From NCBI RefSeq assembly GCF_002160865.1, contig NZ_NFLJ01000027.1, forward strand, positions 1 through 40,500: DNA of 40,500 bases. The letters are read 5' to 3'. This document shows positions 2,717 through 30,318 of this stretch, one piece after another. Each line of letters begins with the position of its first letter. Position 1 is the first letter of the stretch. Made by a program: the position numbers and the translations under genes. Below the pieces are notes generated by a model. It saw only the letters and a program-made list of their open reading frames with translations, searched no databases and was not told where the DNA came from. The stretch comes from Massiliimicrobium timonense. GTDB taxonomy: Bacteria; Bacillota_I; Bacilli_A; Erysipelotrichales; Coprobacillaceae.

Positions 2717-3574
2717 ATGAAAGATAATCTACTAGAGTTAATAAATCAGATCGACTATATCCGTTCTTTGTTTCATTTACCGAGTGTAAAAGGTATGCCC
2801 CAATTTAAGACCATATCTGATAATGCAGAATTTTCTGCATGGAAACAGGAACTTCAGTTAGAACTTGAAGCTATCCATGATAGAACCCATGACAAATTTA
2901 TTTGGAGTACACTTGTAACTATAAAGCAAGGGTTTAATGGTTGGCATGATGAAAAATCGTTTAATGAATTATGTGGTAGTCTTTTAGCCATACAAAAAAA
3001 TATTGCAAAATATTATCCCGAAGAAGTTGACAGCAAAATAATTATAAAGGAGGCCAAATTGATGCCGGAAAAGAGCCCTAAGGTTTTTATAAGTCATTGT
3101 AGCAAAGACAAAGACTATGTTTTGTCTATAGTTGAGTTACTTGAAGATATTGGTTTATCGCAGGAACAACTGTTTTGTTCTTCTGTTCCAGGTTACGGAA
3201 TACCTTTGGATGAAGATATTTACGATTACTTAAAAAAGCAATTTGACGAGCATAATCTTCATGTATTTTTCATTTTATCGGACAACTATTATCAGAGCGT
3301 TGCCAGTATGAACGAAATGGGGGCAGCATGGATATTACAGACCAAATATACAACAATACTACTTCCTGATTTTGAGTTTAAAGAAATACAGGGAGCTATT
3401 AATCCACGGAAAATTGCTTTGAAGCTAGACGGCAATGAGATAGAAGTAAAAGAAAAGTTAGGTCAATTAAAGGATGCTTTAGTACAAGAATTTCATCTGT
3501 CTGACCTACCTAGTGTTAGATGGGAATGCAAACGAGATGCTTTCATTAGTTCGATTGCGAAACTCAAAGACTAA
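2717..3574 (+). CDS. TIR-domain protein (C-terminally truncated)
   Basis: The 285-residue protein starts with a helical N-terminal domain (1-110, with FNGWHDEKSFNEL near 73-85) of a kind often found before bacterial TIR domains. A TIR domain follows from VFISHCSKDKD (123-133) to about 250. The expected catalytic Glu is present (E200 in ASMNEMGAAW), so NAD+ hydrolysis is plausible. Such proteins often act in antiphage or abortive-infection defence. The stop at 3572-3574 is premature: the following codons in the same frame still encode the winged-helix-like C-terminal domain usual for this family (to 3841). The truncated form keeps the whole TIR core, so it may be inactive, misregulated or still functional. 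The next gene downstream is the wreck of a DUF2326 ATPase. TIR identity is firm; its role is inferred. Confidence 0.85.
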   Translation: MKDNLLELINQIDYIRSLFHLPSVKGMPQFKTISDNAEFSAWKQELQLELEAIHDRTHDKFIWSTLVTIKQGFNGWHDEKSFNELCGSLLAIQKNIAKYYPEEVDSKIIIKEAKLMPEKSPKVFISHCSKDKDYVLSIVELLEDIGLSQEQLFCSSVPGYGIPLDEDIYDYLKKQFDEHNLHVFFILSDNYYQSVASMNEMGAAWILQTKYTTILLPDFEFKEIQGAINPRKIALKLDGNEIEVKEKLGQLKDALVQEFHLSDLPSVRWECKRDAFISSIAKLKD

Positions 3575-3841
3575 TCTATCAAAATTAGTAATGAAGCCTG
3601 AAAATTACTACAAGCTGCTAGCAAAGCAGAAGATGGTGTAATTCTAAAAAACACTGATTTATCAGGTACATATATTACAACAAACAATATCAATTTTGTT
3701 ACATCCTAAGGTCTCCGGGAAGTGGCAAAATAGGAAAGCAGTTTGTGAGAATTTATAAATTTGTGCTTTATTAAAGTTTGGAGCGACTTATTTATGGTAA
3801 CTAAGTTTGGATATGAGTTTATTGATACCTTAGATAAATAA
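3575..3841 (+). pseudogene. Decayed C-terminal domain of the TIR protein
   Basis: Continuing the TIR frame past its TAA (3572) gives SIKISNEA-stop-KLLQAASKAEDG, TYITTNNINFVTS-stop-GLREVAK-stop-ESSL-stop-EFINL, then VTKFGYEFIDTLDK and a TAA at 3839. These match the order of motifs in a C-terminal helical/winged-helix region common in TIR and other defence proteins (EA-x-x-LL-x-x-AS, REVAKW, VT-x-x-GYE-x-x-D). The internal stops are TGA 3599, TAA 3707, TAG 3731 (very likely a former Trp) and TGA 3746. No frameshift is needed anywhere across the stretch. Confidence 0.7.
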
Positions 3842-5275
3842 AAAGAGGGAGCAAAAGTATTTAAAACAGCTCATCATTTAAAAAATAGAAGATCTTATAG
3901 AAAGATTAATGGTCAAAAATATTCAAAAGATGAATTCAACCAAGTGTTAAAAGAAATGTTGTTTAATGGCTTAACTGCAAAAAAACCAACATTAAAACAG
4001 CTTGTAGGACATAACATCAGATATAAAGATAAAGCAATTTCTAATACTATTAAATATCTTGATTCTTTTACAAAAGATGTTGAATATGAAACATTATATT
4101 TATATTTATTGGGTTGTGCTCATTCAAAGGGACAACTCAAAGAAACACTCACAACACAGTTACAGCAAGAAAAGAAATATAAAAGTCGTTTAGAATCCAA
4201 TGTTTCAAAAAATAATTATATTGTTATGTTGGTTGCTATTAATAATGAAATTAAGAAATTAAATCAAAAGAAAGATAGTCTTAATATTAATGAAAATTTT
4301 GAAAATGGTTTAAAAACATTAAATCATATTAAATATGATATTAATCAGATGACTGAAGCTATCTCATTATTAAAAATGAGAAAAGATTTAATTATAGAAT
4401 CTAAACAAGAATTAGAAAAGAATAATATTGATATTGATTTGTTTGAGTTAAAAACTATCTATGAAGAAGTATCAGAAAAGCTAGGACCTCTCAATAAAAC
4501 TTTTTCTGATTTAGTGAATCATCATAATACTATGATTCAAAATAAAGTGAATTATATTACAAAAGAACTTCCTTCATTAGAAAGTGAAATCAATTCTTAT
4601 AATGAATAATTAACAAAAATATTAGAAGATGAAAAGAAATACTCTGTTCTTTTAAAGAAAAGTGATACTTTTGAAGATTTAGAACAGATTATTCATGAAT
4701 TAAACTTTCAACATCAAAAGAAAGGTGAATATGAAGGAATTATTGCTAAAATTGAAGAATCAGAAAAACAGGCAAAAGAGTTAAAAGATCGCTTAGATAC
4801 AATCAATCATGAAATTATGTCGAATGAGTATCAAGAAGATGTTAAAACACAAGTCACAGAGTTTAATAAATATTTTGAAGAAGTTTCAGAGTATTTATAT
4901 GATGAAAAATACTTATTGTCTTATGATTTAAAAACAAATAAAAATAATCAGTCTTATTATGTATTTAGTACTTTTAATGAAAACTTAAGTTCTGGAAAGA
5001 AACAAGGAGAAATCTTATGTTTTGATATTGCACTTATCCAATTTTCACGTCATTTGAACTTGGCTCATTTATCGTTTTTATTGAACGATAAAAAGGAGTT
5101 AATGGATAATCACCAATTATTAAAAGTGGCCAGATATGCTAAAGAAAACAATATTCAATTAGTTTTTTCTATGCTTGCTGATAAGGTACCTGATATTCTT
5201 AATAATGATGGTAACATTATTTTAAGATTATCACAGACAAGTAAGTTATTTAGAATAGAAGAAAACAATTTATAA
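3842..5275 (+). pseudogene. DUF2326 (ABC-3C/YydB-like) ATPase remnant, N-terminus missing
   Basis: One reading frame, broken by a TAA at 4607-4609, encodes KINGQKYSKDEF and KKPTLKQLVGHNIR near the front, a long coiled coil (about 4150-4850), and a C-terminal DUF2326-type ATPase lobe with the signature-like LSSGKKQGEILCFDIAL and a degenerate Walker B region (LSFLLNDKKELMDNHQ). DUF2326 proteins are SMC/RecN-like ABC ATPases; many are the ATPase of ABC three-component conflict systems. The first 100 or so residues, including Walker A, are absent, and the stretch before 3944 lacks a start. The internal TAA sits where Gln would fit (SYNE-stop-LTKIL). The open parts are 3944-4609 and 4817-5275. It cannot make a working ATPase. 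Confidence 0.75.
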
Positions 5276-17025: not shown

Positions 17026-17654
17026 TACTTGATTCTCCTTACTGGACATCCAACATAAGTCCCACTTTCCTTGATGTTTTTTACAACCCCTGCACCAGCT
17101 CCAATAATTACATTATCAACTATAGACTTTCCTTGTATGATTTGGGTTCCTGTTCCAATTTCACAATAATTTCCAATTTCTACATTTCCAGAAATATTTA
17201 CTGATGGATATACAGTTATAAAATCATTCATTATAACATCATGACCAACTGTACAATCAAGATTAACATGATTGAAATTTCCTAGTTCTATGTTAACTGT
17301 TAATATACTATGACTACAAATTATATTTCCTATTCCCATTTTTATTGTTTTATCAATACGTACATTTTTTGCAATGATATTTGGAAATAGGATGTTATTG
17401 TTAAATTTGAGTTTTTCATAAATCATCGATCTAACGCTAGGACTTCCAATTGCAATAACAACATTTGTTTCTTCTTTTCTTCCTAATAAAAAATCAACAG
17501 TACCTATGACAGTAATACCATTGATTTTTTCCCCTTGAATTGTTTCATTATCATCAATAAATCCTTTAATGTTCCATTCTGAGAGTTCTTCTAACAACCA
17601 TGCAACCTCTCTACCAAAATCAGAGGCACCAATGATATAAATATCTTTCATCAT
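17025..17654 (-). CDS. NeuD/PglD-like sugar N-acyltransferase
   Basis: The 209-residue protein has an N-terminal Rossmann-like nucleotide-sugar-binding domain ([20 protein letters not shown]) and a C-terminal left-handed beta-helix ([20 protein letters not shown], then [15 protein letters not shown] and VGCPVRRI). The His of VGHDV is the expected catalytic base. PglD and its relatives acylate the 4-amino group of UDP-4-amino-6-deoxysugars; NeuD acetylates sialic acid. Its ATG overlaps the TGA of the thiolase gene, and the aminotransferase and PglC-like transferase are in the same operon, so an amino sugar is the natural acceptor. With a thiolase and a 3-hydroxyacyl-CoA dehydrogenase directly upstream, the acyl donor may be a 3-hydroxyacyl-CoA in place of acetyl-CoA; that step is inferred. 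Confidence 0.85.
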
Positions 17655-18907
17655 GATTCCTCCTTTCCAACAATAAAGACATAATTTGTTGTTGCAGAGC
17701 CACCTATATTCAACATCATGGCATTTCTTGCATCCTTGATTTGATATCTGCCAGCAGTATCTGTAACCTGTTTATATATATCCAACATCATTCTTACACC
17801 ACTTGCTCCTACAGGATGTCCGCAACCTATTAGTCCACCACTAGGATTAATAGGCTTATTACCATCAATTGCAATAGTACCATTTTCAATGGCTTCATAT
17901 TCTTTTCCAGGATCTGTTATTCCAAAGCATGATATTGCTGCATATTCACTTGACGTAAAACAATCATGTGTTTCAAAGACATCTATATCTTCTACTGTCA
18001 AGGATGCTCGTTGATATGCATCCATGCAGGCTTGTCTTGTCCAAGGCAATATGTATTCATTATCTTTAGATTCTTTCATCTTTTCGCCAAAAATCATAGG
18101 AGCCACTCTATGACCAAACCCTTTTATGATAGGCTTTTTTGTATTTTGATAATATTTTTCCTTATAATCTTTAGAACATAAAACAATTGTTGCTGCACCA
18201 TCAGTTACTTGTGAACAATCTGTGAGTGCAAGTCGTCCACCAATAATTGGATTTGTGCCAGTATTTCTTGTAAGTGTCTGCTTCTTATCCATATACCATC
18301 CTCTCGTTTGTGCTTGAGGATTTCTTTTAGCATTGGAATAATTAATATATGAAATTCTAGACAATGCTTTCATATACCTTTCTTCATCCAAATTGTATTT
18401 TTTTATAGTTTCATCTGCCAATCTTGCAAATAGTTTTGGAAATGGAAAATCAATATCTTTTGCTTCTAGTTCGTAAAATGCTGCCTTTCCTAAGAAGCTT
18501 CCTCCTACCTTAGAATTAACAGTTTTCATCATCTCAAATCCGATGACCAATGCAATATCATACGTATGATCTCTGATCTTACTGCAGGCTGCATCAATAG
18601 CGACTGATCCAGAAGCACAGGCAGCTTCGTATCTTGCTGATGGTACACCATAGAAACATGAATCAACTTCTGTCAGCAAAGCACCCAGATGACCCTGATC
18701 AAGATAATTTTCTGCAATAAAATTACCTACAAATATGGCAATCTTATTATCTTTATTGAGCTGAATAATATCCTCTCTTGTTAAGTTGATATCTTTCATT
18801 GCATCAAAGATATTTTCTCTTAACATTGCAATGACACTTTTTCCTTCTTTACTCCAGTTTCTTTGAAAATCAGTTTGAGCTCCACCTAATATATATACTT
18901 TTTCCAT
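17651..18907 (-). CDS. Thiolase-family enzyme (SCP2-thiolase-like acetyl-CoA acyltransferase)
   Basis: The 418-residue protein has the nucleophilic Cys in [15 protein letters not shown] (about residue 96), the HDCF motif ([11 protein letters not shown]) and [14 protein letters not shown] with the catalytic His. Its C-terminus has NIGGS in place of CIGGG. HDCF plus the missing second Cys point to the SCP2-thiolase or lipid-transfer-protein thiolase branch, not to classical AtoB. Thiolases condense or cleave acyl-CoA; with the dehydrogenase next door the simplest product is acetoacetyl-CoA. Its presence inside a polysaccharide operon, overlapping the sugar acyltransferase gene, argues for making an acyl group for the glycan. 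The direction and chain length are not shown by sequence. Confidence 0.88.
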
Positions 18908-18921
18908 TATTTATGTCCTCC

Positions 18922-20328
18922 TCAATATTTGGCTTTTAAAAATGGTCTAAAGTCATATTTAGAATGTTCTGGAATGCATTTATAAAAATCTTTATCATTA
19001 ATAATATGCTGATATCTTGCATCCAGATATTTATTGATGAGGTATTTTGTTTTTTCTTTTCCACCTAGTAATTCAATTAAAGCAATAGGTGGAATCCATG
19101 AAAAACCAGTTGCCATTGCATCATCACATGAAGCAATATCTGTGGAAACTTCACTAGATATTTTCAATGAATATACTATATATGAAAGAAGCATTTTCTT
19201 GCACAGAGTTGCCTCTTGGCTTTCATCATCAATCAGTAAATTTATACCTTTTTCATATTGTCCATTTTTAAATAATTTAATCATCTCATTAGCAAAATAA
19301 AATTGGTAATTATTCATAAGACGATAGTTATTCTGTTTGATATCATATACAAAATTCAATTGTCTATCTCTATCTTTAAAATAAAACCCTTTATTAACTT
19401 TACGACCAAGTTTGTTTTCCATAACAAGCTGATTCAGGTAATCTGGAGCAGCAAATGAATCTCTGTATTCATCAAGGACATTCTCATAGATATAATCAAC
19501 TATGCTTTTTGTTACATCCAAACCAACAAAATCTGCCGTAACAAGGGGAGACATATTTCGACCAGTAAAGCATCCTAAAATACTATCAATATAATCAATG
19601 CCCCCTTGATCTTGATATTTTTCAGCTAATTTCATGGCTTCACCAATAAAAAAGAAACCAATTCTATTTCCTAGAAATGATGGTTCATCTTTAACTTCTA
19701 CAACTGTTCTGTTTAATTTAGTCTGAAGATAATCCTTTAATTGAATAGCTGTTTCTCTTTGTTCATCACTGTGAGTAACAAGCTCACATAATGTAAGATT
19801 ATATGGTGGATTAAACATATGAATACCAAAAAATCGATTTTTATGTTTATCAAATATTTCAGATAATTCTTTAATACTTAAACCGGAAGTTCCCGTCGCT
19901 ATGATTGCATCATCTTTTAAAAAAGGTTTTATTTTCTGATATACATTTTTCTTTATTTGAAAATCTTCACTAACTGATTCAAATACTATATTTGAACGTT
20001 TTATATATGAATCTAAATTTTCATAAGTTCCAGGAAATAAATTTTTACCTATAGATTCACATCTTATTGATTGAATTGCTAATTCCTTTGCTTCATTTGC
20101 TTTTTCCATATCACGGCATACCATGAAAACTATACATTCTCCAAAGGATGCAAAAATAGCTGAAACATTTCTTCCCATGGTACCGTTAGCTCCCAAAACT
20201 GTTACAACTTTCTGATTGTGAGTTTGAAACGGCAAAGGTATACCCTCAATAAAATCAATAAGTGTATAACTATCCCTACTATCATCCGTATTTCTTATAA
20301 AACTATTCAAATGTTTTCTCTGTCTCAT
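18922..20328 (-). CDS. 3-hydroxyacyl-CoA dehydrogenase
   Basis: The 468-residue HAD-type enzyme has an N-terminal NAD-binding fold with a slightly unusual fingerprint (VTVLGANGTMGRNVSAIF) and keeps the catalytic residues. The Ser is in TGTSGLSI, the His and Glu are in GIHMFNPPYNLTLCELV, and the Asn is in PSFLGNRIG. A C-terminal helical domain follows (VGLDVTKSIVDYIYEN, then KGFYFKDRD), with an extended tail of about 150 residues (GFSWIPPIALIELLGGKEK). It interconverts 3-ketoacyl- and (S)-3-hydroxyacyl-CoA. The gene lies directly after the PglC-like transferase gene (one base apart) and 14 bases before the thiolase gene. No enoyl-CoA hydratase or acyl-CoA dehydrogenase is nearby, so fatty-acid degradation or butyrate synthesis is an unlikely context. 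Confidence 0.88.
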   Translation of the reverse strand: MRQRKHLNSFIRNTDDSRDSYTLIDFIEGIPLPFQTHNQKVVTVLGANGTMGRNVSAIFASFGECIVFMVCRDMEKANEAKELAIQSIRCESIGKNLFPGTYENLDSYIKRSNIVFESVSEDFQIKKNVYQKIKPFLKDDAIIATGTSGLSIKELSEIFDKHKNRFFGIHMFNPPYNLTLCELVTHSDEQRETAIQLKDYLQTKLNRTVVEVKDEPSFLGNRIGFFFIGEAMKLAEKYQDQGGIDYIDSILGCFTGRNMSPLVTADFVGLDVTKSIVDYIYENVLDEYRDSFAAPDYLNQLVMENKLGRKVNKGFYFKDRDRQLNFVYDIKQNNYRLMNNYQFYFANEMIKLFKNGQYEKGINLLIDDESQEATLCKKMLLSYIVYSLKISSEVSTDIASCDDAMATGFSWIPPIALIELLGGKEKTKYLINKYLDARYQHIINDKDFYKCIPEHSKYDFRPFLKAKY

Positions 20329-20934
20329 TTAAGCACTTCCTTTAAATTCTTCCATTGTAGCTGATGTATCACTGGAGATACCTTCTCTTAAGAATACAAT
20401 TTTTATAGTCTTGAATATAATACTCAAATCCAATCTAAAACTGACATGTTTTACATAATATATATCCAGATCAAACTTTTCTTCCCAGCTGATCGCATTT
20501 CTGCCATTGCATTGTGCCCATCCTGTAAATCCAGGTCTTACATCATGACGATGTTTTTGATGATCATTATATAATGGAAGATATTTGACTAATAAAGGTC
20601 TAGGCCCTACTATTGACATATCTCCTTTGAGTATATTAAAAAGTTCAGGAAGTTCATCAAGACTTGTTGATCTTAATAGTTTCCCAAACTTTGTTAATCT
20701 CTGATCATCAGGTAGTAGATTACCATCTTTATCCTTTTCATCTGTCATTGTCCTAAACTTATATAATGTAAATATCTTTTCATGAAGTCCCGGTCGTTTC
20801 TGTTTAAATATAACAGGTGATCCTAACTTGATTCTTACTAGCAATGCGATAATCAATAGGATAGGACTTAATATAATGATTGCGAAAAGTGACAAGATAA
20901 AGTCTAGCCATCTCTTTATATATCTGGCATACAT
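20329..20934 (-). CDS. PglC-like initiating phosphoglycosyl transferase
   Basis: This 201-residue monotopic transferase has one N-terminal re-entrant membrane helix (residues 8-33), [20 protein letters not shown] with FRTMT, the catalytic Asp93-Glu94 ([10 protein letters not shown]), [12 protein letters not shown] and [14 protein letters not shown]. Its small size without the extra N-terminal membrane domain matches PglC/WecP/EpsL-type enzymes. These move a phospho-sugar, often a diacetamidobacillosamine-type residue, from UDP-sugar to undecaprenyl phosphate to start the repeat unit. Its gene follows the aminotransferase gene with a one-base overlap, the usual pglE-pglC arrangement. A different, larger initiating enzyme is encoded at 35971-37314. 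Confidence 0.92.
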
Positions 20935-22157
20935 TACTCGAAACAGCTCCTTATCATCTCTATGATTTTATCCTGCTGTTCTGGTGTCATCTTGTTGTCA
21001 CTTGGAAGGCATAATCCTCTATTGAAGATATCCATTCCTATATCAAGAGATGCTCCTGCTATGTATGCATTCGTATTGGCTCTCCCGTTGCCATGACGTG
21101 TAATGAAAGGATTCATTCTATAGATGGGCTGCATATGCATTGGTTTCCATATAGGACGTCCTTCAGCATTATATCTTGCCAGTGTTTCCAGTATCTCCGT
21201 TGGACATGACTTTCCATGTTCCTTGATATATAATGCTTCATTCTCTGATCTATTTGTCTTGCACATAGCATCTTCATCAATCAATAAACATGAAAGCCAG
21301 TAGTTTGGTTCACAATTATCAGGAATAGGATTCATTGTGACAGGAAGATCTTTCAATCCTTCCTTGTATCTTTCATAGATGGCTTTCTTTTGCTTGATAT
21401 GTTCATCTAAATATTTATACTGACCTCTGACAACTCCAGCAATGACATTAGACATGCGATAATTATATCCAATCTCTTCATGCTGATACCATGGAGCATT
21501 TTCTCTTGCCTGTGTTGACCATTTGCGTGCCTTGTTAGCTGCTTCTTCACTGTCAGTTAAAAGCATTCCTCCAGAAGAACCGGTAATGATCTTGTTACCA
21601 TTGAATGAAATGACATTGTAAGTTCCAAATGTTCCTGTCTGCTGTCCCTTATATGTTGCTCCTAAGGATTCAGCAGCATCTTCAATCAATATGGCATGAT
21701 GCTGATCACATATCTTTTTGATTTCATCAAGCTTTGCTGGTGTTCCATAGAGATTGGCAACAACGACAACCTTGACATCTGGATAGATCTGAAAAGCTTT
21801 TTCCAAAGCTATAGGATCCATATTCCATGTTTCATATTCTGTATCTATGAAAACGGGGATACCTCCTTCATAGACAACTGGATTGACTGTCGCTGCAAAG
21901 GTCATGTCTGAACAGAAGACATAATCTCCACGCTTGACACCAGCCAGTTTCATTGCCAGATGCAATGCAGCTGTTCCAGAAGACAAGGCAACCGCATGCT
22001 TACAGCCAACATATTCTCTTGAAAGCTTTTCTACTTCATTGATATTTTCTCCTACAGTAGACATCCAATTGGTTTCATAGGCTTCCTTTACATATTCGAT
22101 TTCCTCACCATGCATAGTTGGTGAAGACAGCCATACTTTCTTTTCGAAAGGTTTCAC
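20934..22157 (-). CDS. DegT/DnrJ/EryC1/StrS-family sugar aminotransferase (PglE-like)
   Basis: The 407-residue PLP enzyme has [18 protein letters not shown], the cofactor Asp160 in [13 protein letters not shown] and the Schiff-base Lys189 in [16 protein letters not shown]. These enzymes put an amino group on C4 (or C3) of nucleotide 4-keto-6-deoxysugars. It is the first gene of locus 1, followed without a gap by the PglC-like gene, so it probably makes the 4-amino sugar that primes the repeat unit. No UDP-GlcNAc 4,6-dehydratase is in the window; the only 4,6-dehydratase is RmlB in the opposite operon. The start codon is GTG, after an AGGGGAGG ribosome binding site about 11 bases upstream. Confidence 0.9.
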
Positions 22158-22200: not shown

Positions 22201-22225
22201 CTTTCAAAAGACTACTTATTTTAAA

Positions 22226-22261
22226 GAAAAAAGTCTGAATTCGTTATTTAAAAATTCAGAC
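22226..22261 (-). terminator. Rho-independent terminator of the HTH gene pair
   Basis: On the minus strand GTCTGAATT (22261-22253) pairs perfectly with AATTCAGAC (22241-22233), followed by TTTTTTC (22232-22226). It closes the transcript of the upstream HTH protein gene (stop at 22275) and separates it from locus 1. Confidence 0.88.
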
Positions 22262-22274
22262 TAGAAAAGTAGTA

Positions 22275-23888
22275 TTAAGGTATATATTGAAATCTCTCAG
22301 ATAATTCTAAGAATTCATCTGCACCATCAGCAAGTTCTGGCTTATATTTAATAAGTTCTATCGTAGGATCACCTTCGGTTAATTGAAGAAATTTATTTCT
22401 ATGGAAGAATTTGATTAATTCAAAAACGAAGTCTCTTGCTTTAACATGTGTAGAATTATGTGCACATGTAACAATATAATCAACAATAGGTTGAGCATTT
22501 AATGTTTGAAACCCCAAGTTATTTTCTTTGAATTGATCTTTAAGATGAAATAAATCTTTTTTTGAAAGAAGTGGTAAGAGCATAAATATATCAGCAATGG
22601 AATATGTATTTTCCTTTTTCATCATAGATTTATAGTATTGATAATTGAAGTCATATTCTGTGTTGAAGGTTGTCTTGGCCATTTCTTTTTTATATTTATC
22701 TAAAAGTAATTGATATTCCTCACATTCATAATTATATGAAATGATTTCTGATGAAAAATGTGGAAATAATTTTAACAGATGATACAGTACTTTTTCATTG
22801 TTATTGGATTGATCAGAAGATAACCAATTATAAAGATCTGTTTTGATGCCAAGCAATTCTTGGATGACTTGTAGATATTTTCTTAATAATGATTCATTGA
22901 TATCACCTGACATTTCTTCAACGAATTCTTCTAATAAATATCGAATATTTTTCTTTGTTTGTCTCCAATGAATTTTAAAAAGAAGACTATAATCAGATGA
23001 ATGAATCATATTGATTTGTTTATCATCTTTTTCAAAATATTGTATTATATTACGATAAGATATAAGTGGCTTAAAATCATGATTATTTAACACTTTTTTT
23101 GAAAAAGAAATATGCTTAATAAAGTTTTTAAAATGATTTGAATTTTGAAATTCTTTTATTTTATTGAAAAATGCTTCTTGTTGTTCATACATAAATTGAG
23201 GTGTATCTATAACACAGTAGTATCGTTTGGTTAAATATTCAAAATAATCTAAAGCTTCTTTTCTTTTTCCATATGCATAATTATGAAGTAAAAAATGAGC
23301 AATATATCTTTCATAATGTTTGCTATTGTTATGACCAGCAATTCTAGAAAAAATATCATACATTTGCTCTTCATTCAATAAAGGAAATGTATAAATAAGA
23401 CAATCTGTACTTAAAATGTAATTATTTTTTAGATGTCTATAAGACTTCAGCATTTGTATAACACACTTAAACACAATAATGAGTTTTTCATTTTGATTTT
23501 CCAGAATAGAAGAAACATCATCCATTAAAATTTTTATTATGTCATTAATTGTTTGATCATCAATTTCATTTATTTTTAAAATAAGTAATTGTTGTATAGG
23601 TACATTAAGAATATACGAAAATTTAATGATTTCTTTATATGGAATAGGGGAATCGCTATTTGTATTAAGTACTTGTTTTATCCAAACTTCAGAAACATTG
23701 AAAATTTGAGAAAGATCTTTACGTGTCAGTTGATAATTAGAAGTTTCCTTTTGAAACAAATGAAAAATATGTTCTTTTGTTTTCATCCAATTTACATTAA
23801 GAAGTACAAACGCTTTTTCCATGAATTTTATCGCAGAGTCTAATTCACTTTCTTTGTCATTTGTAATATTGTTAATTGAGTCTTTCAT
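22275..23888 (-). CDS. Unrecognised HTH-containing protein (paralogue 1 of 2)
   Basis: I do not recognise this family. The ATG at 23888 is preferred to the longer frame from 23939 because AGGAAGG lies 11 bases before it; this gives 537 residues. A helix-turn-helix of phage-repressor type is visible near residues 60-105 (LTRKDLSQIFNVSEVWIKQV), followed by IPYKEIIKFSYILNVPIQQL. The remaining 400 residues are charged, helical and without membrane segments, and suggest repeats of the TPR or HEAT kind. A second, clearly related protein is encoded immediately upstream; shared landmarks include YxFPLLxEExxYDIFSRI, NYECxEYxxLLD and LLPLLSxxDL. The layout suggests an intracellular regulator with a large sensory or protein-binding part. 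Target and function are unknown. Confidence 0.7.
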   Translation of the reverse strand: MKDSINNITNDKESELDSAIKFMEKAFVLLNVNWMKTKEHIFHLFQKETSNYQLTRKDLSQIFNVSEVWIKQVLNTNSDSPIPYKEIIKFSYILNVPIQQLLILKINEIDDQTINDIIKILMDDVSSILENQNEKLIIVFKCVIQMLKSYRHLKNNYILSTDCLIYTFPLLNEEQMYDIFSRIAGHNNSKHYERYIAHFLLHNYAYGKRKEALDYFEYLTKRYYCVIDTPQFMYEQQEAFFNKIKEFQNSNHFKNFIKHISFSKKVLNNHDFKPLISYRNIIQYFEKDDKQINMIHSSDYSLLFKIHWRQTKKNIRYLLEEFVEEMSGDINESLLRKYLQVIQELLGIKTDLYNWLSSDQSNNNEKVLYHLLKLFPHFSSEIISYNYECEEYQLLLDKYKKEMAKTTFNTEYDFNYQYYKSMMKKENTYSIADIFMLLPLLSKKDLFHLKDQFKENNLGFQTLNAQPIVDYIVTCAHNSTHVKARDFVFELIKFFHRNKFLQLTEGDPTIELIKYKPELADGADEFLELSERFQYIP

Positions 23889-23937
23889 TGGGTATTCATC
23901 CTTCCTGTTTTTAATTTCTAAGTCATGACTTATTAAC

Positions 23938-23988
23938 ATTATAACTTCATAATGAGAAAATAATAAGTATACTTGTAAGTTACTTACA
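23938..23988 (-). promoter_or_regulatory. Promoter and perfect dyad upstream of HTH paralogue 1
   Basis: On the minus strand a TATAAT (23943-23938) follows a weak TTATTA at 17 bp. Just upstream lies the perfect dyad TGTAAGT-T-ACTTACA (23974-23988). The dyad is centred about 18 bases beyond the -35, where an activator site would be expected. Confidence 0.5.
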
Positions 23989-23992
23989 GCAA

Positions 23993-25603
23993 TTATTTTA
24001 TCATGACTTCCATATAAAATTTTTTGATACTATCAGTAATTTCTTTTGGGAATTGACAATTTGCTAGAGTTTGAAAATTATATGCTAAATTTAAATATGC
24101 ATCTTTACCCGATTTTAAAGAAGGATTTCTTTGAGATACGATAGCCATAGGATCTTCACTTTTAAAGCGATTGACTTTATCTTCATGGTTATATCGAATG
24201 ACTTCAAAATAAAACTTCTTGGCTTGATAGTAATGTGATTTTTTTGCTAATGATACTATTGTATCAATAATATGAATACTATTGGCAAAAAAGGCGTCTT
24301 TGGTATTATAAGACTGTATCACTTCTAACAAATCTTGTTGACTTAATAGTGGTAGGAATCCAAGAATTTCACTAATAGTATAACGAGATTTATGTATAGA
24401 GATATATCTTTGATAATTAAGGGTATTTGTTTTATTTTTAAAATGATATTCAAAATTGTCGAGTAAATCTTTATATTCAGGACACTCGAAATTATAGACA
24501 ATTATTTGAGAAGAGGGAATATTTATGATCTGAATAATATTGAATAAATCATTTTTATTAAATTGATGATTTTTCTTTGAAGATAGTATATGTCTTAAAA
24601 TATGTTCTTGCTCTGTTGATAAAGCAATTAACTCATTATCAAAGATATATTTTATATTGTGTATTGATTTTGGTATATTGATTTTAAATAAAATATCATA
24701 TGATTTTTGATATGGATATGATTTCTTTTTTGAAGTATGTGGTTTTGATGAATGTGGTTTATCAGGTTCAATTGGTTTACTCTTTTTTAATAGAGTTGAT
24801 AAATAACTAGATTTCATAGTAAAAAGAAAATATTCTTTTGTTTTGAATCGATTGACTTTTGTAAAATATTCAATATAGGAATCATCATTGATAGTTAGTA
24901 AATTTCCATTATAGTATTTATCAATAATTTTAAAAAATTGATTGACAGCTTTATTGTCAGTTTGTGAAGAACAACGAAAAAAGATAACATCAGAAATATA
25001 TTGACTATCATTATATTTAACATTCTGTAGTGTAATTCTCGAAAAAATATCATAGAATTCATATTCATCTATTAGAGGTAAAGCATAAAGAATACAATCA
25101 ACATTTTGTTGATAATTCAGTAAATGATGATAATAACCATAGAATAGAAGTGTTGCTTCGTATTCTATATCTAAGTTATTCTCATATAAGGAAGTATATC
25201 TAATGATTTCTTGAAAATCATTGATTATGTTTTGTTTTTCATTTAAATCAAAAATATCAATATTGTGAAAAAGAGTATTTTCAATTGGGATATTGAGTAG
25301 AAAAGCAAAATCAAATAATCTCGATGTAGGAATCTGTGTGTTATTTTTTTGAAACCATTTCTTAACTGTAATTTCACTGACATTGAAATATGCAGCTAAA
25401 TCCTTACGTGTTGAAATGTTGTAAGGTGCTAATCTATCTCTTAAAAGCTGAAATATCTTCTCTTTGGTGAGATTCCAGTTGATAGACATAAGATTAGATA
25501 ATAATACATAGAATTGTTTACGATTTTTTCTTTGAGAAAAATCTAAAGATTTTATGAATTGTATTTGTTTTGTATAGTCTTGTAATAATTGTTCTTTGTT
25601 CAT
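23993..25603 (-). CDS. Unrecognised HTH-containing protein (paralogue 2 of 2)
   Basis: This 536-residue relative of the protein encoded at 22275-23888 is also of no family I know. It has an N-terminal segment of about 75 residues, then an HTH (ISTRKDLAAYFNVSEITVKK, with WFQ following) and IPTSRLFDFAFLLNIPIEN. A long helical region with the same landmarks as its neighbour ends in SGKDAYLNLAYNFQ. A basic, Pro/Ser/Lys-rich linker (around residues 280-300, KPHSSKPHTSKKK) is absent from the paralogue. GGAGGAAG precedes the ATG. It is divergent from the first LCP gene, so the pair could control wall-polymer attachment or either polysaccharide operon; that is only positional inference. Confidence 0.7.
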   Translation of the reverse strand: MNKEQLLQDYTKQIQFIKSLDFSQRKNRKQFYVLLSNLMSINWNLTKEKIFQLLRDRLAPYNISTRKDLAAYFNVSEITVKKWFQKNNTQIPTSRLFDFAFLLNIPIENTLFHNIDIFDLNEKQNIINDFQEIIRYTSLYENNLDIEYEATLLFYGYYHHLLNYQQNVDCILYALPLIDEYEFYDIFSRITLQNVKYNDSQYISDVIFFRCSSQTDNKAVNQFFKIIDKYYNGNLLTINDDSYIEYFTKVNRFKTKEYFLFTMKSSYLSTLLKKSKPIEPDKPHSSKPHTSKKKSYPYQKSYDILFKINIPKSIHNIKYIFDNELIALSTEQEHILRHILSSKKNHQFNKNDLFNIIQIINIPSSQIIVYNFECPEYKDLLDNFEYHFKNKTNTLNYQRYISIHKSRYTISEILGFLPLLSQQDLLEVIQSYNTKDAFFANSIHIIDTIVSLAKKSHYYQAKKFYFEVIRYNHEDKVNRFKSEDPMAIVSQRNPSLKSGKDAYLNLAYNFQTLANCQFPKEITDSIKKFYMEVMIK

Positions 25604-25805
25604 TTTACTTCCTCCACTATTCGTATAATATCATCTTGAAATAAGTTTATATATATTTTTTTAATAAAATTAGAAATAATATAATAATATATATTTTTTC
25701 ATTTCTTTTAGCAAATATAAAGTATAGATTAATAATTTTTGATATAAACTTATGCACCAATTTATATGCTATTTATTGAAATATAAAACCAAATATTATA
25801 TGATA
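25604..25805. other. Divergent intergenic region with a long-spaced inverted repeat
   Basis: A very A/T-rich region between the HTH pair and the LCP genes. ATAAGTTTATAT (25641-25652) and ATATAAACTTAT (25742-25753) are perfect inverted copies 89 bases apart, possibly paired operator half-sites. No gene is seen. Confidence 0.5.
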
Positions 25806-25846
25806 AAGTCACATAAAGTCAAAAATACGGTCTATGTGACTTTTTT
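25806..25846 (+). promoter_or_regulatory. Terminator-like hairpin (attenuator candidate) before the LCP genes
   Basis: AAGTCACATA (25806-25815) pairs perfectly with TATGTGACTT (25833-25842) around a 17-base loop, followed by a run of T (25841-25846). It lies only 25 bases before the GTG start of the first LCP gene and after the divergent intergenic region, where no upstream plus-strand gene exists to terminate. Conditional termination of the LCP transcript is therefore a reasonable reading. Confidence 0.6.
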
Positions 25847-25871
25847 GTGACTAAATTAGGAGGGAATAGTT

Positions 25872-27284
25872 GTGTTGAAAAATGTAATGAATAAACTGAT
25901 TCAATGGAAGGTCATGCTTGTCATACAGGCACTGATATCCATTGTATTGGCAGTTTTATTAATACAGTTGAATGTATTACCTATGATGTATATTATTATG
26001 ATTATAGTGCTTGAAATACTACTTGGTGTAGGTATTTTCTTTTTAATGAGAAATGCTCAAAAGGTAAGGTTAATTATAAGTCATTTGATAAGTTTGGTAA
26101 TAAGTATGGTATTGATTGTTGGATGTATGGTTGTTTCAAAAGGAAATAATGCTATTCAAGGTTTAACAAGTGATCATACACAAACTAATCGTATTTCATT
26201 ATATGTATTAGAGGAAAGTTCATATCAGGAACTTGATGACTTAAAAAATCAAAGTATTGAAGCAAATATTAATGATGAACACATGTCTGATGCAATTGAT
26301 GCACTGAATAAAAAAGTTAAGCTTTCAATTCAAGGTCAAGAAGATTATGTTCGGATGTCTAATGATTTATATGATCAAAAAACAGCTGGTATTTATATGA
26401 ATGAAGCACAATCAGCATTGTTTGATGAAATTCATGAAGATTTCCATGAAAAGACAAGAATCTTATATACATATGAAATCACTGAAAAGGTAGAAGACTT
26501 TTCTAAAGATGTTAGTGTCACACAAAATGCTTTTAATATCTTTATTAGTGGCATTGATACAACAGGACCAGTATCTACTGTATCAAGATCAGATGTCAAT
26601 ATGATTGTCACTGTTAATCCTCAAAGTAAGAAAATTTTAATGACAAGTATTCCTAGAGATTATTATGTAACTCTGGCTAATAAAGGAAAAAAGGATAAAT
26701 TAACACATGCTGGTTTAGCTGGTGTAGAAAATTCAGTCAAGACTTTAGAAAACTTTTTAAATATTGATATTAATTATTATGCAAGAGTGAATTTTACATC
26801 ATTGATTCAAATGGTTGATGCATTAGGTGGTATTGAAGTTTATTCTGATCAAGATATTCCTAAATTAGGTATTCATGAAGGTATTAATCAAATGGATGGA
26901 AAAAAAGCTTTATCATTCTCTAGAGAAAGATATTCTTATAAGAGTGGTGACAACCATCGTGTACAAAATCAACAAAAAGTCTTGGAAGCTATGCTTAATA
27001 AAATGATGTCACCTGCCATTATTACCAATTATTCATCTATATTAGATCATATTGACGGTTGTTTTGAAACCAATATGACTTCTGATGAAATTACAAGTTT
27101 AATTAAAATGCAATTAAGTGATATGTCTAGCTGGGATATTCAACAAATTCAATTACAAGGACATGGAGCTATGTTAACAGGTGGAGCCTATATGCCAGGT
27201 AATAGATTATATTATATGATTCCTGATGAAGATAGTGTGAGTCAATGTGTAGCTCAAATTAAAGAGGTTCAGGAAAATCATTAG
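25872..27284 (+). CDS. LytR-CpsA-Psr (LCP) family wall-polymer ligase, copy 1
   Basis: The 470-residue membrane protein has three predicted N-terminal transmembrane helices (about residues 13-35, 37-58 and 66-86), an extracellular accessory region, and a C-terminal LCP domain: FISGIDT, RSDVNMIVTVNP, TSIPRDYYV with a key Arg, DALGGIEVYSD, and FSRERYSYKSGDNHRVQNQQ. LCP enzymes move undecaprenyl-linked polymers (teichoic acid, capsule, rhamnan) onto peptidoglycan outside the cell. The start is GTG, 8 bases after AGGAGG. It is followed 16 bases later by a second LCP gene. With polysaccharide operons on both sides, it probably anchors one of their products. Confidence 0.92.
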   Translation: MLKNVMNKLIQWKVMLVIQALISIVLAVLLIQLNVLPMMYIIMIIVLEILLGVGIFFLMRNAQKVRLIISHLISLVISMVLIVGCMVVSKGNNAIQGLTSDHTQTNRISLYVLEESSYQELDDLKNQSIEANINDEHMSDAIDALNKKVKLSIQGQEDYVRMSNDLYDQKTAGIYMNEAQSALFDEIHEDFHEKTRILYTYEITEKVEDFSKDVSVTQNAFNIFISGIDTTGPVSTVSRSDVNMIVTVNPQSKKILMTSIPRDYYVTLANKGKKDKLTHAGLAGVENSVKTLENFLNIDINYYARVNFTSLIQMVDALGGIEVYSDQDIPKLGIHEGINQMDGKKALSFSRERYSYKSGDNHRVQNQQKVLEAMLNKMMSPAIITNYSSILDHIDGCFETNMTSDEITSLIKMQLSDMSSWDIQQIQLQGHGAMLTGGAYMPGNRLYYMIPDEDSVSQCVAQIKEVQENH

Positions 27285-27300
27285 TTGATGGAGGTCAATC

Positions 27301-28728
27301 ATGAATAAATATTTGGAATATATTAGAACATCTATTATAGGGAAAATAACACTTGTGTTATGGATATTGATTTTAATGTTAGGAATATATTGTTTTTCAC
27401 AAATCTTTATTTATCTTCCAACAATGATTTTTATAATAGCAATCATTATTTTTACAATTGTTGTTGCACTATTAGGTTTCGCACATTATAAAATACCAAA
27501 AGTTTCTCTGTTTTTAGAAATCGTTGTGTGTATATGTTTAATAGTAGGGGTATTTGCAGTCAACAAAGTCACAACATTTACTGATAAGATTACAGAAACA
27601 AATGAAGTGGAAACTGTTTCAATTGTAGCTTTAAAAGATTCTGATATAACAAAAGAACAATCTTTTGATGATTTGACTTTAGCTTATAGTCAAGATGATG
27701 ATTCATCATACAAACATTCTACAGAAATTTTAAAAGAAAATAATAAAAAAGTGAAAACAGAAAAACCATATCAAAATATGGAACTCGCTTATAAGGCGTT
27801 GAAGAATCATAAAGTTGAGCTATTAGTTTTGACAAATATTGGAAAAAGTGATTTATCAGTCATAGATGAAAATTATGAAGATTATATCCAAGTCATTTTA
27901 TCAAAAGATTATCCATTAGAAAAAGTAACATCACAAGATGTAGACATCTCTAAAGAACCATTTACAATCTATCTTCAAGGTGCTGACTTATCTTCAGGGG
28001 ATAATATTAATTCAACAGGTAGGGGAGATGTGAATATTTTATTGACTGTTAACCCTCATACAAAGAAAGTGAATATGCAGGTTATACCAAGGGATTTATT
28101 TGTTTATATTCCTTGTAAAGATGCTAGTAGTAAACTATCTTATAGTGGCTGGTGGGGTGGTATTCAATCCTCTATAGCCAGTATAGAAGATAAATTAGAT
28201 ATTCAAATTAATTATTATGCTAAGATTAATTTTAATGGTTTGATGGACTTAGTGGATGCATTAGGTGGTGTAGAAGTTTATAGTCATTATACATATAATG
28301 CAGGAGAGTATCACTTTGAAAAAGGATATAATCACGTGGATGGTCAAAAAGCTTTAATGTTCGCAAGAGCAAGAAAAATGCTTCCATTAAATGAACGTTC
28401 ACGTGGATATCAGCAAATGGAATTAATAAAAGCTATTTTTACAAAGTTTGCTCAAGAACCAACATATAATCATGCGATGAGTGTCATTGATTCTTTAGAA
28501 AGTAATTTTACAACGAATCTACCAAAAGAAGACTTTTTCAAAGCTTTTCAGCTTGTTGTAGATTTATTACCTGAATTACAGACAATGGAGAATCATTCTA
28601 TTGAAGGTGAATATCGATGGCATTATGATGAAGTCAGAACAAATTATTATCAATATTATTTCTATCCTGCTGATGGAGAATTACAGGCAGTGAAGGAAAG
28701 AATTGATTATGTCATCAATGGAAAATAA
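27301..28728 (+). CDS. LytR-CpsA-Psr (LCP) family wall-polymer ligase, copy 2
   Basis: The 475-residue paralogue of the preceding protein has the same layout: three N-terminal membrane helices (about 15-33, 38-60, 68-86), an extracellular spacer containing two YSQDDDSSY-like acidic stretches, and the LCP domain with GADLSSGDNINSTGRGDVN, VIPRDLFVYIP, VDALGGVEVYSH and LMFARARKM. The Arg residues that bind the polyprenyl pyrophosphate are conserved. GATGGAGG precedes the ATG. The pair has clearly diverged, so each copy may serve a different polymer. A bidirectional terminator lies directly after the stop. Confidence 0.92.
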   Translation: MNKYLEYIRTSIIGKITLVLWILILMLGIYCFSQIFIYLPTMIFIIAIIIFTIVVALLGFAHYKIPKVSLFLEIVVCICLIVGVFAVNKVTTFTDKITETNEVETVSIVALKDSDITKEQSFDDLTLAYSQDDDSSYKHSTEILKENNKKVKTEKPYQNMELAYKALKNHKVELLVLTNIGKSDLSVIDENYEDYIQVILSKDYPLEKVTSQDVDISKEPFTIYLQGADLSSGDNINSTGRGDVNILLTVNPHTKKVNMQVIPRDLFVYIPCKDASSKLSYSGWWGGIQSSIASIEDKLDIQINYYAKINFNGLMDLVDALGGVEVYSHYTYNAGEYHFEKGYNHVDGQKALMFARARKMLPLNERSRGYQQMELIKAIFTKFAQEPTYNHAMSVIDSLESNFTTNLPKEDFFKAFQLVVDLLPELQTMENHSIEGEYRWHYDEVRTNYYQYYFYPADGELQAVKERIDYVINGK

Positions 28729-28730
28729 AA

Positions 28731-28763
28731 ACATCAATGAGAGATGATCTCATTGGTGTTTTT
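28731..28763. terminator. Bidirectional terminator between LCP2 and the AAA/PD-(D/E)XK gene
   Basis: ACATCAATGAGA (28731-28742) pairs with TCTCATTGGTGT (28748-28759), one G-T pair, with A-rich and T-rich flanks on either side. It serves the convergent genes ending at 28728 and 28750; the stop of the latter lies in the stem. Confidence 0.82.
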
Positions 28764-30318
28764 CTATATGACATGTATGCTTCTTTGTTTTCTTATCATA
28801 ACTGATTCCGACAATCAATAAGTTATCTTTATAATTCTCTAATCCTTTTGGATATTTTTTCTCTTTGATTTGAGTTAAGGCTGTTTCAACATCCTGATTC
28901 CATTTCAACTCTATAATCATGGCTGGTTTATCTCGATATGGAATCAAAACAACATCTGCAAACCCTTTACCAGTAGGCATTTCTCTTATCATTGTATAAT
29001 AATCTCTAGCTGATATATAGGCCAATAATAATGTATAGGCTAATGCATTTTCATTGTTGTAGGTTAATATTGATGTGTTGAGATGTGCTTCTTCAATATA
29101 TCTGGCAACGGCTTCTTCATCCTGCTTCCATGTTGCCTCTAATAATTCACGACTACTCAACAATGCTTTTGTCGTTTCTTCCCAATTGGATTTTCTAATT
29201 GAGTTCACAAATGAATCTATCACTTCTTTGTTAGGAATATAGCATGTATGATCTGAACTGTTATATCCTAAATATCCAAGATGTATTAAAAGTGTTAAGA
29301 CATCATCCTTAGTATCAAATGTTGTCATATCATTCTGGAATGAGGATGTCTGTACTGGTACACTTTCACCAGCCAACATTTCAATAACACTATCTTTGAG
29401 TCCATCCTTATTTAAATCTATATAAACCTGCAAGGCTTCATAGGTTTCTGTGGATGTCCAATAGTTTCCAAATTGTTTTCTTATAAGTGATGCAACAACA
29501 GAACGTGGGGAAAGAGTTGATAAATGATCTGTCATATGATAGCCATCATACCATTGTTTCATTTCATCATAACTGATGTTATATTGAATACAAAGATTTT
29601 GAACTTCAGTTTCAGTAAATCCCATAAATTCAGATAATAATCCCGGATCAATCATAGAGATTTCTTCAAACATATTCAAAGCACTGTGTGTGCCATATTT
29701 TTTAATAGGCAATATCCCTGTCATATAAGCAAGTTCTACATATGGTTTATCTTTTAATAGATTTCTTAAGAAATCTAAATATTGCTTCTGTGCCTCTTTA
29801 TCCTGTTTATATTCTCTAAAGATACAATCCCATTCATCTATAATAAAAATAAATCTTGCATCTGCTTCAACATAAACATCTTCTATGATTTGAACAAGAT
29901 TAGATGAATCAATATAATCTACATTTGGAAAGACTTTTTTAATTTCTCTGAAAATCAGTTTGGCAAGAAGTAAGATCATTTTATTAATATCATGAGTCTT
30001 GCTTAAAAAATCCTGCATATTAATATGAATGACATGATGCTGATTAAGATGTTCTAAATAATGAGCAGTTTGGCTGATTTTGAGTGAATCAAAAATATGA
30101 TGAGAATCACAACCCTTAGAATAATAGGCAACAAGCATATTAGCATCTGTACTCTTTCCAAAACGTCTTGGTCTTGATACACATAACTTATTATCACCGG
30201 TACCTATTAATTGATTTGTATAGTTAATTAGTAGTGATTTATCTACATATATAGGATTGTTGATTGCTTGTTGAAAACTATCATTTCTTGGATTGAGATA
30301 TAAACCCATACTTTTCAC
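28750..30318 (-). CDS. AAA-ATPase-like protein with PD-(D/E)XK nuclease domain (DUF1703 type)
   Basis: The 522-residue protein begins with the AAA-ATPase-like module: NPRNDSFQQAINNPIYVDKS, Walker A SRPRRFGKSTDA (49-60), HINMQDF, and Walker B FIFIIDEWD (156-164). It ends with a PD-(D/E)XK-like domain, GKGFADVVLIPYRDKPAMII with ELKW (D and ExK of the active site), followed by QIKEKKYP. This architecture occurs in many copies in gut Firmicutes and Bacteroidetes; its biological role is unsettled. It sits alone and convergent to the LCP genes, with no visible link to polysaccharide synthesis. The domain call is secure; the function is not known. Confidence 0.88.
   Translation of the reverse strand: MKSMGLYLNPRNDSFQQAINNPIYVDKSLLINYTNQLIGTGDNKLCVSRPRRFGKSTDANMLVAYYSKGCDSHHIFDSLKISQTAHYLEHLNQHHVIHINMQDFLSKTHDINKMILLLAKLIFREIKKVFPNVDYIDSSNLVQIIEDVYVEADARFIFIIDEWDCIFREYKQDKEAQKQYLDFLRNLLKDKPYVELAYMTGILPIKKYGTHSALNMFEEISMIDPGLLSEFMGFTETEVQNLCIQYNISYDEMKQWYDGYHMTDHLSTLSPRSVVASLIRKQFGNYWTSTETYEALQVYIDLNKDGLKDSVIEMLAGESVPVQTSSFQNDMTTFDTKDDVLTLLIHLGYLGYNSSDHTCYIPNKEVIDSFVNSIRKSNWEETTKALLSSRELLEATWKQDEEAVARYIEEAHLNTSILTYNNENALAYTLLLAYISARDYYTMIREMPTGKGFADVVLIPYRDKPAMIIELKWNQDVETALTQIKEKKYPKGLENYKDNLLIVGISYDKKTKKHTCHIEKHQ

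Follow-up and report, generated by a model that had tools for sequence, protein, structure and literature searches.

A 40,500-nucleotide stretch of Massiliimicrobium timonense (contig NZ_NFLJ01000027.1, positions 1 to 40,500 of the forward strand, assembly GCF_002160865.1), hereafter the window, carries two adjacent minus-strand genes, HTH-A and HTH-B, whose products are diverged paralogues sharing an internal helix-turn-helix (HTH) domain of the Cro/C1 (XRE) class. Judging from their sequence and surroundings, we propose, with a probability of roughly 55%, that they form an autoregulated pair of XRE-type regulators that acts on the spacer between HTH-A and the divergent gene LCP1 and controls LCP1 and LCP2, and perhaps also the capsule genes. 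The pair lies between a minus-strand capsule-type locus and plus-strand LCP genes, an arrangement already noted in a preliminary description of this DNA, and Pfam searches confirmed both flanks. The pair is real, unusual and probably a dedicated regulator, with a DNA-binding domain of known kind.

HTH-A and HTH-B are diverged paralogues

HTH-A and HTH-B align over nearly their whole length (29% identity, 524 columns, E 9e-51) and are, on this alignment, true paralogues, in agreement with their initial description as a duplicated and strongly diverged pair. Both frames were found where that description had placed them, and the length of about 537 residues that it gave for the two proteins is that of HTH-B counted from M18. 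The HTH-B frame counted from its first ATG (22275-23939, minus strand) encodes 554 amino acids, and this ATG lacks a Shine-Dalgarno sequence. The sequence AGGAAGG lies about 11 nt 5' of the ATG of M18 at 23888, which is probably the true start and gives 537 amino acids. Differences between the two genes at the three codon positions amounted to 0.55, 0.36 and 0.57 over 500 aligned codons; position 2 is thus the most conserved, which fits protein-coding genes. Their G+C content is 0.247 and 0.252, compared to 0.314 for 11 stretches elsewhere in the genome, and several capsule genes nearby are equally low.

The HTH belongs to the Cro/C1 class

To classify the HTH, a two-row profile of the HTH regions of HTH-A and HTH-B was compared using hhalign with an alignment of HTH_3 domains of the same genome. 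This alignment held 23 of the 44 HTH_3 matches (loci were available for 30, and seven, L087, L091, L092 and L095-L098, were omitted). The comparison gave a probability of 96, an E value of 3.6e-9 and a score of 46 over 61 columns, far above the scores of 200 column shuffles (mean 10.0, maximum 19.6). Furthermore, when twelve 95-column segments along the protein pair were scored separately, a high XRE score was obtained only where the HTH was covered. Therefore, by profile comparison, the HTH of the pair is a member of the Cro/C1 (XRE) class (Pfam HTH_3 clan).

Other searches weigh against this membership. In Pfam, HTH-A matched Phage_CI_repr with 17.7 bits, below the cut-off of 22, its other matches were also sub-threshold, and HTH-B alone had no match. 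The AlphaFold2 model of the HTH domain alone reached a predicted local distance difference test (pLDDT) of 62.7, and a Foldseek search with this model gave nothing significant (best E 2.6, template modelling score about 0.2). The 29 weak Foldseek rows include many XRE proteins, which we did not count as support, and VIA-align returned only unrelated rows (Z 2.0 to 2.3) and no XRE chain. Membership of Mga/AtxA is not supported either: a winged HTH of the Mga type and PRD domains gave no Pfam match at E up to 10, and the HTH is of the Cro/C1 class.

The HTH lies about 50 residues into both proteins, an internal position reported from the outset, and its resemblance to the Cro/C1 class is not a product of chance, as shown by the margin between the hhalign score and the best shuffle. 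The initial view that the proteins belong to an unfamiliar regulator family holds for their full length, for which no library match was found; it does not hold for the HTH itself, which is of a known kind.

The C-terminal part resembles a second copy of the N-terminal module

The remaining residues, about 400 in each protein, matched no family in Pfam, NCBIfam, PHROGs, PADLOC or the PDB. Whole-protein library searches returned sub-threshold HTH matches and an unrelated FolD model (E 0.014) for HTH-A and nothing for HTH-B, and PHROGs gave no match outside the HTH region. In the PDB sequence search, HTH-A had eight matches with E values of 0.36 to 0.78 (3omt and seven homeobox chains), HTH-B had none, and the two-row profile found one viral protein (E 1.5).

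When the halves of the proteins were compared with each other using hhalign, the C-terminal half was collinear with the N-terminal half, and the alignment takes in the beginning of the HTH region as well as a 'PLL..DL' landmark. The score of 29.9 to 31.3, which varies with the split point, compares with 13.5 for the reversed control and was reached by none of 200 column shuffles (maximum 26.9) and none of 200 block shuffles (maximum 28.0). The C-terminal part thus appears to be a second, diverged copy of the N-terminal module. We also considered whether the C-terminal module holds another working XRE HTH and rejected this idea, since its score of 11 falls inside the shuffle range.

The full-length model of HTH-A has a mean pLDDT of 39.5 and a predicted template modelling score of 0.22, too poor for a fold search; according to this low-confidence model, the long C-terminal part is probably all-helical. 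Hence, of the helical, repeat-like character first ascribed to these residues, the repeat is borne out by the two-module duplication and the helical nature comes from the low-confidence model. Pfam searches at E up to 10 found neither TPR nor HEAT repeats, both of which had been envisaged; in view of the low pLDDT of the full-length model, degenerate TPR repeats may nonetheless be present.

The spacer between HTH-A and LCP1 contains a candidate operator

The divergent spacer between HTH-A and LCP1 (25604-25871, 268 bp, 19% G+C) contains an 11-bp perfect inverted repeat, AAAGTCACATA/TATGTGACTTT, and four AGTCA half-sites in the order AGTCAC-ATAA-AGTCAA ... GTGACT-TTTTT-GTGACT. Each orientation is thus represented twice, with a spacing of 10 and 11 bp, respectively. 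A promoter-like site of the pair, TTGACT-16-TATAAT, has its -35 element inside this candidate operator and was the best scorer of the scanned stretch (11/12), and another, TTGAAA-17-TATGAT, points towards LCP1. Both are consensus matches; the scan returned 48 promoter-like sites where 35.5 were expected, so that little weight attaches to any single one. The full AGTCA quartet was found upstream of the window LCP1 and of none of the 18 other LCP matches of five genus genomes, the stretch examined for three of these (L014, L022 and L024) not being the true promoter region. The 15-base operator half AGTCACATAAAGTCA occurs in one exact copy in the genome, and no other copy differs from it by fewer than two bases. 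Around the spacer, no inverted-repeat pair stood out as the recombination sites of an invertible DNA segment.

We propose that HTH-A and HTH-B constitute a two-gene regulatory operon, and that both proteins, probably as dimers or together in a heteromer, would bind DNA through their N-terminal Cro/C1-type HTH. The probably helical C-terminal part, born of the duplication of the N-terminal module, would now serve oligomerisation and signal input. The four half-sites of the spacer would be the most likely binding site, where the bound proteins would cover their own -35 element and sit beside the LCP1 promoter. The pair would in this way regulate itself as well as LCP1 and LCP2, the products of which are predicted to link the polymer to the wall. 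It might also control the capsule genes that follow HTH-B, which is less certain. We infer the binding, the autoregulation, the sign of control, the targets, the signal and the partner of the pair from these features. The idea of a dedicated control of surface polymers, put forward in the preliminary description, fits the position of the pair and gains strength from the motif in the spacer, from the terminator-like hairpin that follows HTH-B (Table 1) and from the NusG-headed loci described below; control of the polymer genes themselves is the part that we infer.

NusG-type genes occupy the position of the pair at other loci of the genus

A PF02357 search of the five genus genomes returned 12 matches, corresponding to one ordinary NusG-like gene per genome and seven further copies at six loci. 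Three of the seven were also run through Pfam and matched NusG, and one (G002:C45) has an internal stop. At all six loci, the further copy is located directly before PglC, DegT-PglC or PglD-DegT-PglC. One of these loci (C43) belongs to the genome of the window, both NusG genes of which are on other contigs, so that the strain has a NusG-headed arrangement of its own at a different locus of the capsule type. The DegT-PglC locus of the window has no specialised NusG-type gene, and the HTH pair is found in that position. The NusG N-terminal domain of UpxY and LoaP is absent from both HTH-A and HTH-B, as judged by Pfam.

We also observed that one NusG-type locus carries two copies in tandem with a tyrosine recombinase gene upstream (L067:10724-11692). 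This arrangement, including the recombinase, resembles that of Bacteroides capsule loci.

These loci allow a bolder proposal, in which an exchangeable regulator slot heads the capsule loci of the genus. The slot would usually be filled by a NusG antiterminator and here by a new two-protein DNA-binding family, one paralogue activating and the other antagonising, so that polymer switching would operate at initiation instead of elongation. We regard this proposal as quite doubtful. Specialised NusG genes are described as located within polysaccharide operons (Bacteroides UpxY) or next to them (LoaP) (PMC7593976, PMC12691694).

The family has been seen in one bacterium

The genome of the window contains exactly two members of the family, HTH-A and HTH-B. 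Neither gene was found in the 42 other genomes of the taxonomic family, including four other genomes of the genus. Among genomes sampled from the order (294), the class (395) and the phylum (392), the own genome was the sole sound match, in a survey where the three samples overlap, few candidates were scored per genome and the two-row profile limits the claim of absence. Two candidates, G121 (E 0.004, four internal stops) and G532 (E 0.0072, three internal stops), were rejected as chance matches. Searches of 50,697 phage and 72,556 plasmid records gave no match to the pair, and in pattern scans of genome contigs and of viral contigs (IMG/VR), the patterns matched and no relative was confirmed. 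On these sequence searches, the family is so far seen in one bacterium only. We found no paper on such a regulator pair in the open-licence literature.

A profile of the module gave, besides the pair itself, 10 matches spread over eight of the 42 other genomes of the family, with E values of 0.004 to 0.39, near chance level. Five of these (L038, L039, L041, L042 and L043) are XRE-type proteins, a class assigned by eye, and align at the HTH. The other five were dropped, L037 and L046 because they contain stops, and L040 and L047 (sugar-nucleotide epimerase-type) and L044 (peptidase-type) upon inspection by eye.

Alternative explanations

Several points weigh against an action of the pair on polymer genes through this spacer. 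The AGTCA motif was spotted by eye before testing, so that the shuffles of the spacer are optimistic when they give an equally strong perfect stem in 6 of 500 cases and, in 13 of 2000, two copies per orientation within 50 bp of a 5-mer containing at least two G/C. At up to two mismatches, AGTCACATAAAGTCA had 10 genome matches against five for the reversed-pattern control, and thus gave no sign of a larger regulon. The terminator-like hairpin after HTH-B suggests that the pair forms its own unit and argues against direct co-transcription with the capsule genes. Finally, the inverted repeat can form an RNA hairpin (-15.0 kcal/mol, z -2.66, equalled by 1 of 200 shuffles) with TTTTTT after it, which on the plus strand has the look of a terminator or attenuator ahead of LCP1. 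If this were the function of the repeat, the pair would act elsewhere, at the capsule promoter or on distant genes, which we consider unlikely. Doubled half-sites spaced by 10 and 11 bp, about one helical turn, fit protein binding at least equally well, as does the overlap with a -35 element of the opposite strand; furthermore, the other LCP genes examined lack these half-sites, and Rfam found no family above its cut-off at the repeat.

Two further readings concern the nature of the pair. Like Rgg, PlcR, NprR, PrgX and other RRNPP proteins, HTH-A and HTH-B combine an XRE HTH in their N-terminal part with a long C-terminal part that is probably all-helical (low-confidence model), and they could be regulators whose helical part is the receptor of a small exported peptide. 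Rgg-Shp regulators are reported to affect pneumococcal capsule synthesis (PMC5913232), and this counts in favour of such a reading. However, searches with both proteins at E up to 10 brought up neither TPR nor Rgg families. Both are about twice as long as Rgg, which has about 285 amino acids. Among the four small frames in the two spacers flanking the pair, the sole one on the same strand encodes 37 amino acids from a TTG start with no visible Shine-Dalgarno sequence, and these spacers hold no convincing peptide gene that would speak for the sensing of a peptide or partner suggested initially. We find it quite improbable that the pair responds to a peptide in this manner. Still less probable, in our view, is that the pair is the remnant of a mobile element, made of phage-type repressors or of a defence module, and unrelated to polymers. 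The Cro/C1 HTH, the low G+C content, the presence of the pair in one of five genus genomes and the defence-like genes at the left end of the window would all suit such an origin. Nonetheless, the phage, plasmid and viral searches found no relative, the pair had no PADLOC match, no integrase or phage gene adjoins it, and several capsule genes share its low G+C. The resemblance to a phage CI repressor is likewise confined to the sub-threshold match of the HTH, with neither a full-length match nor a phage context.

Genomic neighbourhood

The minus strand downstream of HTH-B encodes, according to Pfam, DegT, PglC, 3HCDH-type, thiolase-type and PglD proteins, glycosyltransferases and Wzy, and continues with a UDP-GlcNAc 2-epimerase (Epimerase_2), a UDP-sugar dehydrogenase (UDPG_MGDP_dh) and an epimerase. 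The plus strand encodes LCP1 and LCP2 and, later, RmlA, C, B and D and a further sugar transferase. We looked for a conserved promoter upstream of DegT by comparison with two loci of genus genome G001, and the spacers gave no convincing alignment.

LCP matches were compared in a tree of 17 rows that carries a long-branch warning; it includes LCP2 and its G003 counterpart and leaves out the partial L014 and L022 of the 19 matches. In this tree, LCP1 sits on a long branch, as an additional member within a starred clade of five. The ordinary copy of this clade in the own genome (C59) lies elsewhere; it is 59% identical to LCP1 and 80% identical to its own G003 counterpart. Since LCP1 is additional to that copy and neither LCP1 nor an HTH gene adjoins the G001 counterpart of LCP2, LCP1 and the HTH pair may have arrived together.

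In G003, and probably also in the own genome (C59, by eye), a tyrosine recombinase gene is located upstream of the ordinary LCP gene (L007:53-953; L011), and the spacer contains TTCACATG...CATGTGAA in both. The G001 counterparts of DegT and LCP2 are each split between frames (L065:4499-5718 and L066:15428-16854, respectively), by sequencing errors or as decayed genes.

Elsewhere in the window, the thiolase-type and 3-hydroxyacyl-CoA dehydrogenase-type genes lie inside the capsule-type locus, in the PglC/PglD interval (17651-20328), an unusual pairing that may mean that the polymer carries an acyl modification. A predicted AAA-ATPase_like/PDDEXK_9 protein with no PADLOC match is encoded on the opposite strand in the interval between the LCP and rhamnose genes (28750-30318). 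The left end of the window (2717-5275) encodes a TIR protein like SpbK (PADLOC, 258.8 bits), and frames 3944-4609 and 4817-5275 match successive parts of one PDC-M68B profile, indicating a probably broken defence-candidate gene.

Table 1. Position of the pair, its domains and the features around it. Coordinates are those of the window except for the NusG-type loci.
Feature	Position	Strand	Remarks
HTH-A	23993..25603	-	536 aa, first gene of the pair; Shine-Dalgarno GGAGGA at 25610-25615
HTH-B	22275..23888	-	about 537 aa from M18; frame open from ATG at 23939
Cro/C1 (XRE) HTH of HTH-A	25271..25459	-	residues 49-111; hhalign probability 96, E 3.6e-9
Cro/C1 HTH of HTH-B	23583..23771	-	about residues 57-119 counted from ATG at 23939; aligned to HTH-A
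N-terminal module of HTH-A	24899..25498	-	HTH and 'PLIDEYEFYDIFSRI' landmark
C-terminal module of HTH-A	24134..24697	-	apparent diverged copy of N-terminal module; HTH-like part shortened
N-terminal module of HTH-B	23205..23810	-	
C-terminal module of HTH-B	22380..22988	-	HTH-like part has no XRE profile match alone
Candidate operator	25805..25852	.	repeat arms at 25805-25815 and 25833-25843
Candidate operator half-sites	25807, 25817, 25836, 25847		AGTCAC, AGTCAA, GTGACT, GTGACT
Promoter-like site of the pair	25795..25822	-	consensus match only
Promoter-like site towards LCP1	25776..25804	+	consensus match only
LCP1	25872..27284	+	LytR_cpsA_psr (Pfam); divergent from HTH-A; diverged paralogue; likely target
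LCP2	27301..28728	+	LytR_cpsA_psr (Pfam); same direction as LCP1; likely target
Intrinsic-terminator-like hairpin after HTH-B	22223..22262	-	11-bp stem, T-rich tail; z -2.42, 5/200 shuffles as good
DegT aminotransferase and PglC-type sugar transferase	20329..22157	-	first genes of capsule-type locus; possible target
Specialised NusG-type loci in the genus	L065:3871-4464, L067:9469-10693, L104, L105, L107, L108		

Discussion

The pair shares its DNA-binding domain with Cro/C1 (XRE) regulators, and the module profile also found five XRE-type proteins elsewhere. Unlike these regulators, HTH-A and HTH-B carry the HTH about 50 residues in instead of at the N-terminus, and have about 400 residues with no family match and a second, diverged copy of the N-terminal module. 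With specialised NusG paralogues (UpxY, LoaP, RfaH), the pair shares the position just upstream of the first polymer genes, as seen in the same genus; unlike them, it lacks a NusG domain and is expected to act at promoters and not on the elongating polymerase. In Neisseria meningitidis, an HTH_XRE regulator reportedly acts on the divergent cps promoter region. It resembles the pair in being of the XRE type at a divergent polysaccharide intergenic region, and differs in being described as a LexA homologue, encoded by a single gene at an unrelated locus (PMC12131743).

The pair adds a new type of regulator and not a new kind of system. Should it not control polymer genes, it would be an orphan family of regulators in a single species, an ordinary finding. 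The choice of surface polymers in gut Firmicutes is poorly understood. If the pair controls the LCP and capsule genes, it would represent a new regulator family at a type of locus where relatives carry NusG-type genes, and would offer a ready test for an interchangeable regulator position in such loci.

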